Below, in pieces: positions 500 to 61,572 of a stretch of DNA of 61,572 nt. The stretch covers positions 1 through 61,572 of the forward strand of contig JAIXYV010000028.1 of assembly GCA_027490055.1 (NCBI GenBank). Reading direction: 5' to 3'. Each line of letters opens with the position of its first letter. The first letter of the stretch is position 1. The position numbers and the translations under genes were made by a program. Below the pieces are notes generated by a model. That model was not told the origin of the DNA, ran no database searches, and saw only the letters and a list, made by a program, of their open reading frames with translations. This DNA is from Bacteroidota bacterium (GTDB lineage Bacteria > Bacteroidota > Bacteroidia > NS11-12g > UBA955).

Positions 500-2953
500 A
501 TGAAAAAAATAGTTTGCTTAAGCGCCATCTTCCTATTTGGAATTTTATTCACCTCTTTGTTCGCACAGAAACCGCCACGCGTATCTTTAAAGATTACTGT
601 ACTTGATATCGATTCAACTCCTGTTCAATCGTACTCCGGAACCTTAAGTTATGCAGCAGGTTTATACACGATTCGTTTTGACGGCGAAGTAGTGGTTGCT
701 CCACGTGCGAATTATGGTCTTACTATCAATGCACCTTTCTGTAAGCCATATGTCACTGGCATTAATCTGTACAACGATACCGAAATAGTGGTTAAGCCCG
801 AGCGTATTATCAGTCAGCAGGCCTCTAGTGTTGTTATCACAGTGATTGCTAAAGAAAAATCTGGCTTTGCTTTAAGTAATATTAAGGCCGCAGAATTGAA
901 AAAGAACAATCTGGGCCAGGATTTCACTTACCTGATCGGTAATACACCTTCTGCGGTAACAACCTCTGATGCCGGAACAGGTGTTGGTTATACCGGTATT
1001 CGAATTCGTGGTAGCGATGCCACACGTATCAGTGTAACTGTTAATGGAATTCCCATCAATGATGCCGAGTCGCATGGTGTTTACTGGGTGAATATGCCAG
1101 ATCTGGCGTCCTCTACTTCGCAAGTGCAAATTCAGAGAGGTGTTGGAACCAGTACCATAGGCACAGGCGCTTTTGGTGCCAATATTAATATCATCAATAA
1201 CGAACTGAAAGAAGAACCTTATCTCAACTTGCAACAATCTTTTGGGTCTTTTAATACGTCTAAAAGTACTCTGATGTTTGGAACTGGCAAACTCAACAAT
1301 TTTAATTTTGAAGGTCGACTTTCTAAAATTGTTAGCGATGGCTATATCGATAGAGCAAGTAGTGATCTGCAATCTTATCAGTTAGCCCTCAACTATAAAA
1401 AGGGTAACTTTAGTCTTAATGCCATAAGTTTTGGCGGTAAAGAAAAAACCTATCAGTCGTGGTACGGCACTCCTGAAAGCCGGGTAAACAACGATGACTC
1501 TGCCATGCGGGCCTATGCCGACAGGAATTATCTGAGTGAAGCTCAAAAACAAAATCTGCTCAATAGCGGTCGAACCTATAACTTTTATACCTACCCGAAT
1601 CAAACCGATAATTACTGGCAAAACCATTACCAATTGCATATGAGCAAAGTACTTAATAAGTATACCGTCTTGAGAACGGCCTTCTTTGCCACAACTGGTA
1701 AAGGCTTTTACGAAGAATTTAAAGAGGGTGCTTCTTTTGCCAGTTACAGAGTGTCTGATTTTTATAACGGGACAGATACAATACGGAATACCGACCTGGT
1801 AAGACAGAGATGGCTGGATAATATATTGTATGGTAATTACTCCTCTGTTAATTATTCACGCAGATATTTCGATTTCACTGCTGGTATTAGTTACAATGCA
1901 TACAATGGTAAACATTTCGGTAAAGTAATATGGGCCGATATCGCTCAGCCATTTGGAAAAGACAGACAATACTACGATTCGAAAAGTAATAAGCAGGAAC
2001 TAAATGCTTATATAAAGGCACATTATATATTAAAGAAGAAAACACAAATCAATGTTGAATTACAAAACAGATACCTTACCTATAATAGTAAAGGTATAGA
2101 TAATGACGGAACGGTAATCGATTTTGATGTGCAGTATAATTTCTTCAATCCTAAAGTGGGACTGTCACATTCTATTAATAAATACAATACTGTATACAGT
2201 AGCTATAGCATTGGTAACCGCGAACCAGTGCGCACCGACTTTATTGACAATCCTGTAAACAGCATTCCTAAATCAGAAAATTTAAAAGATCTTGAACTGG
2301 GCTATATATATAGAAGAAAAGATAAGATGTTCCAGGTTAACCTATATAATATGTTATACAAAAATCAACTGGTGGTAACAGGCGAACTAAACGATGTTGG
2401 AAATGCTTTGAAAAAAAAAAAAAAAAATAGTTTCAGAAGGGGAGTAGAGTTAATAATGATTTACCCTCTGATGGATAAGTTACTATTGGATGCTAATATG
2501 ACCATCAGCAGCAACAAGATTAAAAACTTCGAGGATGTCTATTTTAATTACGATATCGGACAGTATATTAAAGAGGTATATGCCAGCAGTGATATTGCCT
2601 TTTCTCCTAATCTGATAGGCTATGTTGGTTTCATTGATAAACATATCAAGCATACTGAGATCGGTATTAACCTGAAATACGTCGGAAAACAGTATCTGGA
2701 TAATACCTCAAATGAAGGTAGAAAACTAAATCCATTTACCACTTTAAATGTGCTAATAAACAGGCAGTTTAAGTATAGAAATGGCTCCAGTATAGTAATT
2801 AAAGGGGCTGCCAATAACCTACTTGGTATTTTTTACTCAAATAACGGTTATACTTATAAATATGTCTCTTCCGGAACTTTGACGCAAGAAAATTTTTATT
2901 ATCCTCAAAGCGGAAAAAATTTCGTTCTCGGGCTAGAATTTTTGTTTTTGTAA
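500..2953 (+). CDS. TonB-dependent outer-membrane receptor under TPP riboswitch control, probable thiamin transporter
   Basis: An 817-residue protein with a signal peptide (residues 1-22, ending at an FAQ cleavage site). A beta-rich segment of about 100 residues follows, and then a TonB plug domain (about residues 125-245) with typical plug motifs (TGIRIRG, VNGIPIND, VQIQRGVGTST). The rest is a 22-strand beta-barrel ending in an aromatic residue-rich strand (LGLEFLFL). Such receptors use TonB-transmitted energy to import scarce ligands across the outer membrane. The TPP riboswitch just upstream points to thiamin or a derivative, in line with THI-regulated outer-membrane receptors known in Bacteroidota. 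The N-terminal segment after the signal peptide is not a clear carboxypeptidase-like domain. A 17-base A run (2411-2427) encodes a lysine string where the family normally has a mixed sequence before S-[FY]-R-R-G; see findings. Confidence 0.85.
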   Translation: MKKIVCLSAIFLFGILFTSLFAQKPPRVSLKITVLDIDSTPVQSYSGTLSYAAGLYTIRFDGEVVVAPRANYGLTINAPFCKPYVTGINLYNDTEIVVKPERIISQQASSVVITVIAKEKSGFALSNIKAAELKKNNLGQDFTYLIGNTPSAVTTSDAGTGVGYTGIRIRGSDATRISVTVNGIPINDAESHGVYWVNMPDLASSTSQVQIQRGVGTSTIGTGAFGANINIINNELKEEPYLNLQQSFGSFNTSKSTLMFGTGKLNNFNFEGRLSKIVSDGYIDRASSDLQSYQLALNYKKGNFSLNAISFGGKEKTYQSWYGTPESRVNNDDSAMRAYADRNYLSEAQKQNLLNSGRTYNFYTYPNQTDNYWQNHYQLHMSKVLNKYTVLRTAFFATTGKGFYEEFKEGASFASYRVSDFYNGTDTIRNTDLVRQRWLDNILYGNYSSVNYSRRYFDFTAGISYNAYNGKHFGKVIWADIAQPFGKDRQYYDSKSNKQELNAYIKAHYILKKKTQINVELQNRYLTYNSKGIDNDGTVIDFDVQYNFFNPKVGLSHSINKYNTVYSSYSIGNREPVRTDFIDNPVNSIPKSENLKDLELGYIYRRKDKMFQVNLYNMLYKNQLVVTGELNDVGNALKKKKKNSFRRGVELIMIYPLMDKLLLDANMTISSNKIKNFEDVYFNYDIGQYIKEVYASSDIAFSPNLIGYVGFIDKHIKHTEIGINLKYVGKQYLDNTSNEGRKLNPFTTLNVLINRQFKYRNGSSIVIKGAANNLLGIFYSNNGYTYKYVSSGTLTQENFYYPQSGKNFVLGLEFLFL
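2411..2427 (+). repeat. Homopolymer A run inside the receptor gene
   Basis: Seventeen consecutive A bases follow TTG and precede TAGTTTC. They encode a lysine run between GNAL and NSFRRG in the barrel. The reading frame is kept on both sides. It could be a slippage-prone tract or, more likely, unresolved bases written as A (compare the run in gyrB at 61546-61563). Confidence 0.85.
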
Positions 2954-3143: not shown

Positions 3144-6100
3144 ATGAAATTCTCATTTTTCAAATTACCGTTTTTAGCTTTTTTACTGCTTTTGAGTAAA
3201 AAAACTTATAGCTGCGGAGTCACTCCGAATTTCAGTTATAACACAACACATACATGTGGTTTACCATATATTGTGAAAGCAACAAACACTTCTTCTGGTA
3301 ATGGCAACAATTTAGCAAAGTATTGGTGGAAAGTTAATGGCAAGATGGTATCTGATACCATTATTGGCAGAGACTCTATTCAGTTATTGTTAAAATCAGT
3401 TGGCAATCACAAATTGAAGTTATTTGTTAAAGATACTTCTTCTTGTATTGATTCAACTTCACAGGTAACCATAACTGTGTCTTCTAATGCTAAAACCATT
3501 AAAGATCAGAATTACAATTATACTTTAAGTCCGGTTTGGATGAACTGCTTACAGTTTATCAATGACCCTGACAGTTTTAGAATTGACATCGAATCTAACG
3601 ATACCATGAACAATTTGAAAATTTTCTGGGGAGATGGTTCATCTGATGTTTCTGGTAATACTTTGTTGCCAAACATCAAAAAGACCCACCTGTACAATTC
3701 ACTTGGTGTATTCACTGTAAAAATTGTTACAACTAACGGTTCATGTATCGATACTGTTTACGGTACAGTATACAATCAACGTCAGCCAACTGCCGGTATC
3801 GTTGGTCCAACTTCAGGTTCAAACAGAGGTTGTGTGCCTCACACTTTAAGAATCGTAAACAATTCTTACAACATTTCTAATAATACCTATTTTATCATCG
3901 ACTGGGGTAATGGCGATATGCAAACCATGCCATTCAACACCTATAAAGATACCATGTATCACACTTATAGAAAAGGTGTTTGTTCTGGTGTAATTAAAAT
4001 TACTGCATCTAACGTATGTGGTAGCTCTTTCACTACCTGGAATCCAATCGACATCAGCGAAAAAGATAAAGCTCAGTGGGCAGTTACTAAAACTTGTAAC
4101 CCAACTCAGAACCATGTGTTCCAGAATACATCAGTAGATAAATACTGTTTAACCCCTGATATCAAAGAATTCTACTGGGACTTTGGTGATAATACCAACT
4201 CAGGATGGATCAATAGCAAAGCCGCTCAATACCACAAATACAAAACAGAAGGTGATTACATCGTTACCCTGATCGCTAAAACCGCTTGCGGTAACGATAC
4301 CTTCCGTGACAGAGTAAGTGTGTATTACAATCCTACTGCTGCATTTAAATTCTCTAACCCAAGAGGCTGCAAACCTTTAAGCGTAACAGTAACTGATACT
4401 TCTAAAGGCAGAGGCTTAACCAGATTATGGACTGTAGTTGAAGGTTCTAATACATACACTTACACCGATTCTATTTTAAATTACACTTTCACAGTTCCTG
4501 GTAACAATACCATCACCCTGAAAGTTACTAACCTTTGCGGTAGCAATACACTGACCCGCAATTTCAGAGTAAATGATAAGCCAAAAGCTGCATTTGCAAC
4601 GATCAATGGTACTTGTGTGCCAATGACTGTTAACTACAATAACACAACAGCCTCTAGCTTCACAAACCCAAGTTACAAATGGGAGTTTGGCGATGGAACA
4701 ACTTCTACTGCTAAAAATCCAGCGTCTAAAGTTTATAGCACACCTGGTAACTACACTGTAAAATTAATCGTGGCTGATAGCTGTGGTGTTGATACCTTCA
4801 CACAGACTTTCACTGCCTATGGTTTACCAGTTGCTATTCTTAGTGGTGATACAGTAGGTTGTACTTTTGATTCATTAAAACTGAATAACCAGTCAACTAA
4901 CTCTACTACTTATAACTGGAGCTTTGGCGATAACCAAACTGCTACTACCTCAAGTCTGGGTATCTACAAACATGTTTATATCACCACTGGTGCTTTCCAG
5001 GTGAGATTAATCGCTGGTACAGGTGCTGGTTGTAAAGATACTGCTTACCATAACCTTTACATTAAGCCAGGTGCTAAAGCACAGTTCTCTGTCAACAAAA
5101 ATTTCGGATGTAACCCTACAACATTCAAATTTACTAACTCATCTTTCTACGCTAAAGATTACAAATGGTATGCTAACGGTAAATTAGTCTCTACTGCTGC
5201 TACTGCTAACGATACTATCATCTATACTGATTCAACTATCGTTAGAATGAAACTAATCGTTACCAGTAACTCTTCTTGCCAGGGCGATTCAATGGAAAGA
5301 ACTTTCTTTACTGCTAAAAATCCTAAATCAATTGTTAACGCGCTTGATTCTGGTTGCGGTCCCCTGAAAGTTACTTTTGCTAATAACTCTACCAATGCTG
5401 TTTCATACAACTGGAACCTAGGCAATGGCAATAGCTCTACTGTTAAAAATCCAGTTTCAATCTATCAGCAAGCCTATACCAAAGATACGGTTTACAGAGT
5501 GAAACTAAATGTCACTAACTGGTTAGGTTGCAAAGACAGCTCTTACGGTTTTGTTCGCGTATTCCCTTCACCAAAAAGTACATTTGAATTAGATAAAATC
5601 GAAGGTTGCGGTCCGCTTACTATCACCGTTACCAATAACTCATATACTAATAATAACAAACCTGCAAGCACATTGACTCACCAATGGCGTCTTGGTGATG
5701 GTACTTCATCTTCTGATGTTAACCCAGTACACACCTATTATGCCAGCAACTATCAGGATACTTTCTATTCTATCAAGTTAAAAGTAATTACTGTTAATGG
5801 TTGTGCTAACTCAAGTGTTCAAACCATTCAGGTTTTCCCAAATCCAACTGCTCAATTTACACCAGATAAAGTGGCCGGCTGCGGCATCCTTCCAGTGAAG
5901 TTCACCAATTCCTCAACTCCAAAAGACACAGGCAACATCGACATGATGAGCTTCGATTGGACTTCAGGTAATGGTGTAACTTCGACTGCGAAAGATTTCA
6001 CTGCTAATTACGCCGCTTCAGTTTACTCAGATACAGTTTATACTGCTACTCTGATTGGAACCAGCGAACATGGCTGTAAAGACACCAATACTTTCAATAT

Positions 6101-8708
6101 CACTGTTCACCCACAACCACATGCTCAGTTTATTACCAATGTGACTAATGGTTGTACACCACTAAAAGTTAAAACCACTAACCAGTCTTTCTCAAAAGAT
6201 GGTGGTGCTCTTAACCATGGCTGGAACTTCGGTAATGGCTATCAGGCTATCGTAAAAGAAGATTCAACTGTGTTAATCAATAATAGCAATGCAGACATGA
6301 AATTTACAATCAACTACCAGGCTACAAGTCAGTACGGTTGTAAAGATTCTGCCAGCACTGAAATTACTGTTCGTCCGAAGCCGGTTGCCAAACTAAAAGT
6401 GTCAACCAACAAAGCTTGTGCTCCTGTTGTATTAACTGTTAACGATAACTCTATCAATGCAGCTTCTTATATCTGGGGTGAAGGTTCTAAATCTTATGTT
6501 GGTGGAACTTCAACTACCATGTTGCTTCAAGGTCAGAACCTTTTCGATTCACTTTACATCATCAAACATGCTGTTACTTCTGTATACGGTTGTGTGAGTG
6601 ATACTGCCTACGAACAAGTGATCGCTATGGGTAAACCTCAAGCAGTTTTTGCAGCAGCTAAAGATTCTGCCTGTGCCAGAGAAAGTGTTCAATTCATCAA
6701 TACCTCTTTAGGTGGTTACAGATACATTTGGAGATTTGGTGATAACACCACTTCTAATCAAGTTAATCCTAAACACAAATATGTTGTTAATGCCCTTACC
6801 GGCAGAGATTCAGCTTACAAAGTAAGTCTTGAAGTTAGTTCTGTTGCCGGTTGCAAAGACACTACTAAAAATCCTGTCTACCTGGTTAACAGACCAGTTG
6901 ATAAAATTGTATTAGATAAACAAACTGGTTGCACCGACCTTGAAATTACTATGGGTCACGCTTCTAAAGCTTTCAAAACCTTGTTCTGGGATTTTGGAGA
7001 TAACTCTAGCTACTCTACTGAAGATACCGTTAAACACACGTATGTAAACCCAATGGGTAACTTAACCATGCAGCCTAAAATTGCCCTTTACAGACAGCGT
7101 TTCAACTGTATGGATACTGCAACTACTATGGTGTATGTTTATCCAAAACCTGTGTCTAATTTCAGTACCCAAAGAAATGATCCTTGTGATGCTGGTAACT
7201 ACCAGTTCATCAATAAGTCTAAAAATAATGTTAGCAACGAATGGTTATTTAATGATGGTTCAGTTGTTAATGTATCCAGCTTCTCAACCATCCTGCCTGC
7301 CTCTAAAGAAAAAGATACCTTCTACAGCGTGGCGCTTTACGTTAAAAACAACTACCAGTGCGTAGATAGCAGCAGACAGGTTATTAAAGTAAAACCTAAA
7401 ATGAACATCGAGTTTACTAAAACTCCAAGCATCATTTGTCAGAAAGGTATTGTTAACTTTACTAACAGATCAACCGGTGCTGTTCGTTACTTCTGGAAAT
7501 TTGGCGACGGTGGTTTGTCAAACGAGGTTAACCCTTCTTATGTTTACAACCAATACGGTACCTACAAAATCCAATTGTATGGTTATGATAAAGATGGTTG
7601 CGTAGACAGTGCCAACTATAGCGAAATCTTTAAAGTGTTAGAAAAGCCTAAAGCTGATTTTACCTTCTTGCCAGCAATGCCTAAACTGCCTAATGCTATT
7701 GTTAATTTCATTGGCAAACCATTAATCACTACTGCTAATGTAAGCGACTTAACTTACGAGTGGAATTTTGGTGATGGTAGTTTCCCAACCAATAACAAAG
7801 GTCAGAAAGATCCTTCTCATACCTACACTAAATCTGGTAATGTTGAAGTAACTATGACTGTGTGGAATAAAGGTTGCAGCGATGTGGCTAAACGTCCGAT
7901 CTATATCGAAGATCCAAAACCGGTTATTAGCTTCTCTGCTGATACCACTGTTGGATGTGCTGCTCTTAAAGTGAGATTCAAAAACTTTACTACCAACGCC
8001 TATGCTTACAGATGGGTTTGGGGTGATGGTACTCCAGATTCTTACGAAAAAGAACCTGTTCATACATTCGAATTCTCTGGTAAATGGGATGTTACCCTGA
8101 TCGCTACCGGTACAGGTGGAACTACTACTTACACCATTCCTTACATGGTAACTGTTTACCCTCGTCCGGATGCTGATTTCTTCACAAACAAAAGATTCCT
8201 TAACCTGCCAAACGCAGTATTCGGAATGGTGAACATGAGTAACAATGCAATTAAATACAACTGGTATATTTACGATACTTTCAACAATGTGATCGATGCC
8301 TCTACTTTAAGAGACCCATCTTTCCTGATCAATGAAGAAGGTAAATTTGATGTGAAACTGATCGCTACCAATTCTTATGGTTGCACAGACACAATGATGA
8401 AAAATAACTATATCGGTACTTTCAAAGAAGGTTATGTGTACTTACCATCTGCCTTCTCTCCAAATAGTAACGGTAAGAATGACGACTTCAAACCATCTCT
8501 CTATAATGTTATTCCTGATCAATACGTGTTCAGAATCTTTAACAGATGGGGCGAATTAGTCTTCGAAACCACAGACATGACTGAGGCATGGGACGGTACC
8601 CACGATGGTATCGCATGCGAACAGGAAGTCTATGTATGGGCTGTCAGCGGCTTGTTTATTAATGGCGATAACTTCGCATTAAGAGGCACCGTGACACTGC
8701 TCAAATAA
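3144..8708 (+). CDS. Giant PKD-repeat cell-surface protein with type IX secretion (gliding motility-associated, CHU_C-like) C-terminal domain
   Basis: A 1,854-residue secreted protein. The signal peptide covers about residues 1-24. Residues 25-1,750 are roughly 20 tandem PKD-like Ig-fold repeats of 80-95 residues, seen by recurring W-x-F-G-D-G/N cores (WDFGD, WEFGDGT, WSFGD, WRFGD, WKFGDG, WNFGDGS, WVWGDGT). Most repeats also carry a GC-x-P motif near their start and a GCxD motif near their end, suggesting one disulphide each. The last about 85 residues match the gliding motility-associated C-terminal domain, with FSPNSNGKNDDF, FRIFNRWGELVFE, WDG and a closing GTVTLLK. That domain is a type B sorting signal for type IX secretion. 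Expected role: long, rigid adhesin or matrix protein anchored outside the cell; ligand unknown. Single-gene transcript with its own promoter and terminator. Confidence 0.9.
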   Translation: MKFSFFKLPFLAFLLLLSKKTYSCGVTPNFSYNTTHTCGLPYIVKATNTSSGNGNNLAKYWWKVNGKMVSDTIIGRDSIQLLLKSVGNHKLKLFVKDTSSCIDSTSQVTITVSSNAKTIKDQNYNYTLSPVWMNCLQFINDPDSFRIDIESNDTMNNLKIFWGDGSSDVSGNTLLPNIKKTHLYNSLGVFTVKIVTTNGSCIDTVYGTVYNQRQPTAGIVGPTSGSNRGCVPHTLRIVNNSYNISNNTYFIIDWGNGDMQTMPFNTYKDTMYHTYRKGVCSGVIKITASNVCGSSFTTWNPIDISEKDKAQWAVTKTCNPTQNHVFQNTSVDKYCLTPDIKEFYWDFGDNTNSGWINSKAAQYHKYKTEGDYIVTLIAKTACGNDTFRDRVSVYYNPTAAFKFSNPRGCKPLSVTVTDTSKGRGLTRLWTVVEGSNTYTYTDSILNYTFTVPGNNTITLKVTNLCGSNTLTRNFRVNDKPKAAFATINGTCVPMTVNYNNTTASSFTNPSYKWEFGDGTTSTAKNPASKVYSTPGNYTVKLIVADSCGVDTFTQTFTAYGLPVAILSGDTVGCTFDSLKLNNQSTNSTTYNWSFGDNQTATTSSLGIYKHVYITTGAFQVRLIAGTGAGCKDTAYHNLYIKPGAKAQFSVNKNFGCNPTTFKFTNSSFYAKDYKWYANGKLVSTAATANDTIIYTDSTIVRMKLIVTSNSSCQGDSMERTFFTAKNPKSIVNALDSGCGPLKVTFANNSTNAVSYNWNLGNGNSSTVKNPVSIYQQAYTKDTVYRVKLNVTNWLGCKDSSYGFVRVFPSPKSTFELDKIEGCGPLTITVTNNSYTNNNKPASTLTHQWRLGDGTSSSDVNPVHTYYASNYQDTFYSIKLKVITVNGCANSSVQTIQVFPNPTAQFTPDKVAGCGILPVKFTNSSTPKDTGNIDMMSFDWTSGNGVTSTAKDFTANYAASVYSDTVYTATLIGTSEHGCKDTNTFNITVHPQPHAQFITNVTNGCTPLKVKTTNQSFSKDGGALNHGWNFGNGYQAIVKEDSTVLINNSNADMKFTINYQATSQYGCKDSASTEITVRPKPVAKLKVSTNKACAPVVLTVNDNSINAASYIWGEGSKSYVGGTSTTMLLQGQNLFDSLYIIKHAVTSVYGCVSDTAYEQVIAMGKPQAVFAAAKDSACARESVQFINTSLGGYRYIWRFGDNTTSNQVNPKHKYVVNALTGRDSAYKVSLEVSSVAGCKDTTKNPVYLVNRPVDKIVLDKQTGCTDLEITMGHASKAFKTLFWDFGDNSSYSTEDTVKHTYVNPMGNLTMQPKIALYRQRFNCMDTATTMVYVYPKPVSNFSTQRNDPCDAGNYQFINKSKNNVSNEWLFNDGSVVNVSSFSTILPASKEKDTFYSVALYVKNNYQCVDSSRQVIKVKPKMNIEFTKTPSIICQKGIVNFTNRSTGAVRYFWKFGDGGLSNEVNPSYVYNQYGTYKIQLYGYDKDGCVDSANYSEIFKVLEKPKADFTFLPAMPKLPNAIVNFIGKPLITTANVSDLTYEWNFGDGSFPTNNKGQKDPSHTYTKSGNVEVTMTVWNKGCSDVAKRPIYIEDPKPVISFSADTTVGCAALKVRFKNFTTNAYAYRWVWGDGTPDSYEKEPVHTFEFSGKWDVTLIATGTGGTTTYTIPYMVTVYPRPDADFFTNKRFLNLPNAVFGMVNMSNNAIKYNWYIYDTFNNVIDASTLRDPSFLINEEGKFDVKLIATNSYGCTDTMMKNNYIGTFKEGYVYLPSAFSPNSNGKNDDFKPSLYNVIPDQYVFRIFNRWGELVFETTDMTEAWDGTHDGIACEQEVYVWAVSGLFINGDNFALRGTVTLLK

Positions 8709-60162: not shown

Positions 60163-61572
<1,410 letters not shown>

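Follow-up and report, generated by a model that had tools for sequence, protein, structure and literature searches.

A 17-base A run in a TonB-dependent receptor gene is very probably a length-preserving artefact of sequencing or assembly

The window, a stretch of 61,572 bases analysed at its full length, is the whole of contig 41 in an assembly of 3.02 Mb and 121 contigs, and has a G+C content of 39.5%. A predicted receptor gene near its start and the 5′ part of gyrB at its end each contain a long run of A. The features are the following:

500 to 2953, forward strand: gene of a predicted TonB-dependent outer-membrane receptor with plug and barrel domains, substrate unassigned, containing the A17 tract
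2411 to 2427, forward strand: A17 tract, a probable false A-fill; relatives carry R-x-N-(V/A/I)-x codons here
60175 to 61572, forward strand: gyrB, 5′ part, truncated by the contig end
61504 to 61572, forward strand: overlap of 69 bases in which the start of contig C69 shows 11 mismatches, all but one within A18
61546 to 61563, forward strand: A18 tract in gyrB, read as a false A-fill; relatives and contig C69 encode ILNVEK

The receptor frame encodes 817 amino acids. Its tract, located internally at 2.4 kb from the contig start, consists of exactly 17 A between the 5′ flank ...GGAAATGCTTTG and the 3′ flank TAGTTTCAGAAGG. A codon begins at 2411, and the run is read as five AAA codons plus AA(T), giving KKKKKN followed by SFRRG. 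The original prediction, that 17 A encode a lysine run just before NSFRRG without disturbing the frame, was confirmed by the sequence and by the translation, with the frame from 500 to 2953 open on either side of the tract. The same prediction had named the gene a thiamin receptor, and this name found no support: Pfam recognizes only the TonB plug (PF07715, E 5e-10) and the TonB-dependent β-barrel (PF00593, E 6e-7), both above the curated cut-off, no match was obtained in NCBIfam or in a sequence search of the PDB, and Rfam returned no family at gathering score over the window, hence no TPP riboswitch. The absence of the riboswitch and of an NCBIfam match is nevertheless compatible with thiamin as the substrate. 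The receptor gene is adjoined by an ORF of 1854 amino acids (3144 to 8708) in which we take, from its look, the many repeated units to be similar to PKD repeats and the end to a gliding-motility C-terminal domain.

Studies on the conservation of the tract were carried out by comparing the receptor with its counterparts in other genomes. Matches were found in 38 of the 39 genomes searched, its own included, the best relative being 60% identical, and of the 37 matching genomes other than its own, 29 supplied loci for the comparison. The A17 site is spanned by 28 of these loci, all but L035, and it is ungapped in every one of the 28. Over the five lysine codons the relatives invariably have Arg in the first position and Asn in the third (28/28 each), and the residue after Asn is Val in 25, Ala in two and Ile in one, which results in the pattern R-x-N-(V/A/I)-x. 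The N-V pair that had been expected ahead of S-[FY]-R-x-G is thus borne out, Asn without exception and Val in 25 of 28. Lysine runs at this place in relatives, which would contradict an artefact, were looked for and none was present in the 28 that span the site. Since the relatives carry ungapped, mixed sequence there, the A17 tract is an equal-length replacement and not an insertion. The assembly holds the receptor tract in a single copy, and for this reason the artefact at the receptor is judged by analogy and conservation.

The second tract of the window can be compared directly. The A18 run of gyrB stops 9 bases short of the contig end, and bases 1 to 69 of contig C69 repeat the last 69 bases of the window save for 10 bases within A18 and one elsewhere. 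C69 has mixed sequence at the A18 site, encodes ILNVEK there and continues into the remainder of gyrB. The overlapping contig lacks the A run, and the assembly therefore contradicts itself at this tract. Conservation gives the same picture: the seven lysines of the window stand over KILNVEK in 23 of 23 GyrB relatives, and six lysines stand against ILNVEK in the same 23 and in two aligned solved gyrases.

The lengths of the two runs set them apart from all others. Runs of A and T of 5, 6, 7 and 8 bases number 239, 90, 29 and 8 in the window, and the next lengths are only 17 and 18, so that no A/T run of more than 8 bases other than A17 (2411 to 2427) and A18 (61546 to 61563) occurs in the 61,572 bases. 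The whole genome holds 101 A/T runs of at least 9, namely 88 of 9 to 11, one of 12 to 14 and 12 of 15 to 20. Natural decay applied to the 88 runs of 9 to 11 predicts about 0.1 runs of at least 15 genome-wide against the 12 observed, and the latter form a separate class above the decay, with a sharp lower limit near 15. The sole run of 12 to 14 is a T13 on contig C53 (C53:12-24, L133:12-24), 11 bases from the contig start; it may be another fill. By comparison, 38 other genomes drawn from the genus, family and order (about 104 Mb when rounded sizes are summed) contain four runs of at least 15, distributed over three genomes, versus 12 in 3.0 Mb here; two of the four lie in no frame longer than 100 amino acids and two at the very start of one. 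The 16 other genomes of the genus contain a single such run. Of the 12 tracts of this assembly, eight fall within long frames that remain open before and after the tract, although in two of the eight, near contig ends, only 3 to 6 codons follow.

Relatives were compared at the tracts of six genes, the tracts on contigs C15, C34, C45, C50, C67 and C93 lying outside this comparison. In the five genes besides the receptor, gyrB included, the A tracts likewise replace mixed codons. In the release factor (PCRF and RF-1 domains), which we take to be RF2, 21 of 23 relatives span the tract, all of them ungapped, with a mixed yet lysine-rich sequence (e.g., KKIKEKK or KNIKKKK), and the tract is there a small change. 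The aminotransferase tract is ungapped in 23 of 23 relatives, with a gap immediately ahead of it in four distant ones. The C10 protein, without a Pfam match and presumably SprA-like, has its tract spanned by 22 of 23 relatives, 21 of them ungapped. The tract of the SPOUT methyltransferase, presumably RlmH, is spanned by 19 of 19, of which 14 are ungapped and five, all from other genera, are one residue longer. An all-lysine stretch at the tract was found in no relative for any of the six genes.

A further second copy came to light through a protein search. The end of C10 recurs in contig C14 as an ungapped overlap of 321 bases with 10 mismatches, five of which fall within the A15 tract of C10; the C14 sequence at that place is mixed, with six A's at its end. 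Hence, second copies could be compared for two of the 12 tracts (gyrB A18 with C69 and C10 A15 with C14), and both are devoid of the A run, each ending in 5-6 natural A's. Both overlap pairs differ outside the tract as well, at one position between the window and C69 and at five between C10 and C14, one of these five altering an amino acid.

The location of the tracts is not even along the contigs. Five of the 12 are located no more than 200 bases from a contig end, a zone covering 1.6% of the assembled sequence (binomial tail 8e-7), and in all five the A strand points outward, or in six of six if the T13 on C53 is counted, which is still a small number. Several contig ends also share near-identical stretches; six pairs are 93-99% identical, and 27 of their 40 differences are transitions, which looks like a mixture of strains. 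Judged from these sequences, the assembly is probably such a mixture. Among the starts of 104 of the 121 contigs no further overlap partner was found for the tract-bearing ends of C44, C45, C93 and C53 or for the internal tracts.

Taking together that: (i) a second copy without the tract exists for two of the 12; (ii) the run lengths constitute a separate class; (iii) mixed codons are replaced at equal length, and (iv) the tracts are concentrated near contig ends, we consider that the A17 tract is not the organism's own sequence and is instead a false A-fill, with a probability of about 0.96. A general base-filling artefact had been suggested from the receptor and gyrB tracts together, and this suggestion holds up, directly for the gyrB and C10 tracts, which second copies contradict, and for the receptor by inference from 28 of 28 mixed and ungapped relatives. 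By analogy with the sister tracts, and given the conservation of the site, the receptor tract would share their origin. In the model, ordinary receptor bases at the 17 positions, where not already A, would have been overwritten with A while the length was kept exactly. Base calling, read correction, assembly and consensus are the steps at which the overwriting could occur, and the assembly would contain about a dozen such fills, 15-20 bases long, A17 among them. The fills would arise where a minor strain is thinly covered. We lean towards a version in which A-calls, coming from no-signal cycles or poly-A reads, win the consensus at thinly covered spots that are already rich in A. The replaced stretches do tend to be A-richer than their own genes, the median share of windows at least as A-rich ranging from 0.006 to 0.30 over six genes, although this test is weak, having been conceived after the data were seen. 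The A-rich context is weakest for the receptor gene (0.30). From this test one of the 29 receptor loci (not spanning the site) and two of the 23 C10-protein loci (one not spanning, one gapped) were dropped, and 21 of 23 release-factor loci were used, the other two being matches of lower identity that stop short of the tract; the comparison of the tracts themselves included every locus. The outward orientation of the A strand at contig ends weakly fits A-calls made late in outward-pointing reads.

A different route to the same artefact is less probable but ranks second. Some assemblers turn N into A, and N's or no-calls of known length may have become A through two-bit base storage. The conserved length in the genes compared and the sharp lower limit of the runs near 15 would follow from it, as would the strand distribution, nine tracts being A and three T on the contig strand against 33 A and 55 T for the runs of 9-11 (Fisher p 0.026), a weak result since this test too was devised after the data were seen. 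However, N-to-A conversion on the deposited strand by itself leaves the three T tracts and the A-rich context unexplained, and the 5-6 natural A's in which both second copies end would be unexpected from a blind fill. Both the outward A strand at contig ends and the A-rich replaced stretches speak, if weakly, for A-calls or poly-A reads and against a blind conversion of N to A. Among the titles of the literature searched, no paper plainly stating N-to-A conversion was found, nor any description of a length-preserving A-fill pattern. The false fills resemble known local assembly base errors in that the wrong bases are absent from the overlapping contig and from every examined relative and are enriched at contig ends; they differ in consisting exclusively of A, or of T when the opposite strand is read, in runs of 15-20 that preserve the length.

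One biological reading is that some dozen poly-A blocks, in frame and substituted for codons, truly exist in core and surface genes of a minor strain. As the overlap pairs differ outside the tracts too, their members would seem to derive from different strains, and a sceptic could attribute the A's to one of these. If this were true the minor strain would have a slippage-prone set of genes absent from its sister strain; we nevertheless regard it as highly improbable. The original prediction had itself offered, as the alternative to an artefact, a slippage tract at which frameshifts would turn the receptor on or off. The length of the run, 17 A, suffices for slippage, and the gene that contains it codes for an outer-membrane receptor. 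Some such receptors of Neisseria are phase-variable; their tracts are runs of G or C whose length differs among isolates, with a change of reading frame. Phase-variable TonB-dependent receptors of Neisseria, the haemoglobin receptors, are the subject of a published account (PMC3783016). The A17 tract shares with them a long homopolymer within an outer-membrane receptor gene. However, here the run replaces conserved codons at the same length instead of adding a repeat, leaves the gene length unchanged and has no lysine counterpart in any of the 28 relatives. Nor are its sisters confined to contingency (surface) genes, as they occur in gyrB, the release factor and the SPOUT methyltransferase, housekeeping genes whose switching off would be expected to be harmful. 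With two sister tracts contradicted by overlapping contigs, a genuine phase-variable tract can be given hardly any credence, and the on-off switch is not upheld.

The remaining reading, scarcely credible either, is a real lineage-specific expansion of A-rich codons, possibly accompanied by transcriptional slippage of the kind seen in certain endosymbionts of insects. The A-rich tendency of the replaced stretches and the terminal A's of the two second copies would agree with it, but the GyrB residues replaced are identical in 23 of 23 relatives, there is only one run of 12-14 here and one of at least 15 in the 16 other genomes of the genus, and two tracts are contradicted by second copies. The poly-A tracts that undergo transcriptional slippage in endosymbiont genes are found in genomes very rich in A+T and have lengths that form a continuum. 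These have in common with the present tracts the A runs inside coding genes, whereas the window has 39.5% G+C and the lengths jump, with one exception, from 9-11 to 15-20. Phase variation, lineage codon expansion and transcriptional slippage were accordingly rejected on equal-length replacement, conservation and second copies.

As a false A-fill, the A17 tract is almost certainly no real biological feature and is mainly of value as a warning. Frame-neutral poly-A fills escape ORF checks and would introduce false lysine runs into conserved proteins, GyrB in this case; they would also give rise to false calls of phase variation and to wrong sites in phylogenies. A class of A/T runs of 15-20 that stands clear of the natural decay and is concentrated near contig ends offers an easy screen for public genomes.

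The contig ends show two further peculiarities. Positions 1 to 73 of the window match the start of contig C3 (L267:1-73) on the opposite strand with five mismatches in 73 bases. A repeat of about 70-270 bases, 78-100% identical, recurs at several contig starts and inside other contigs (L007:3679-3817 on C50; the starts of C51/L305, C78/L329, C80/L331 and C84/L335; L264:2494-2823 on C46), and may be a dispersed element that causes breaks in the assembly.
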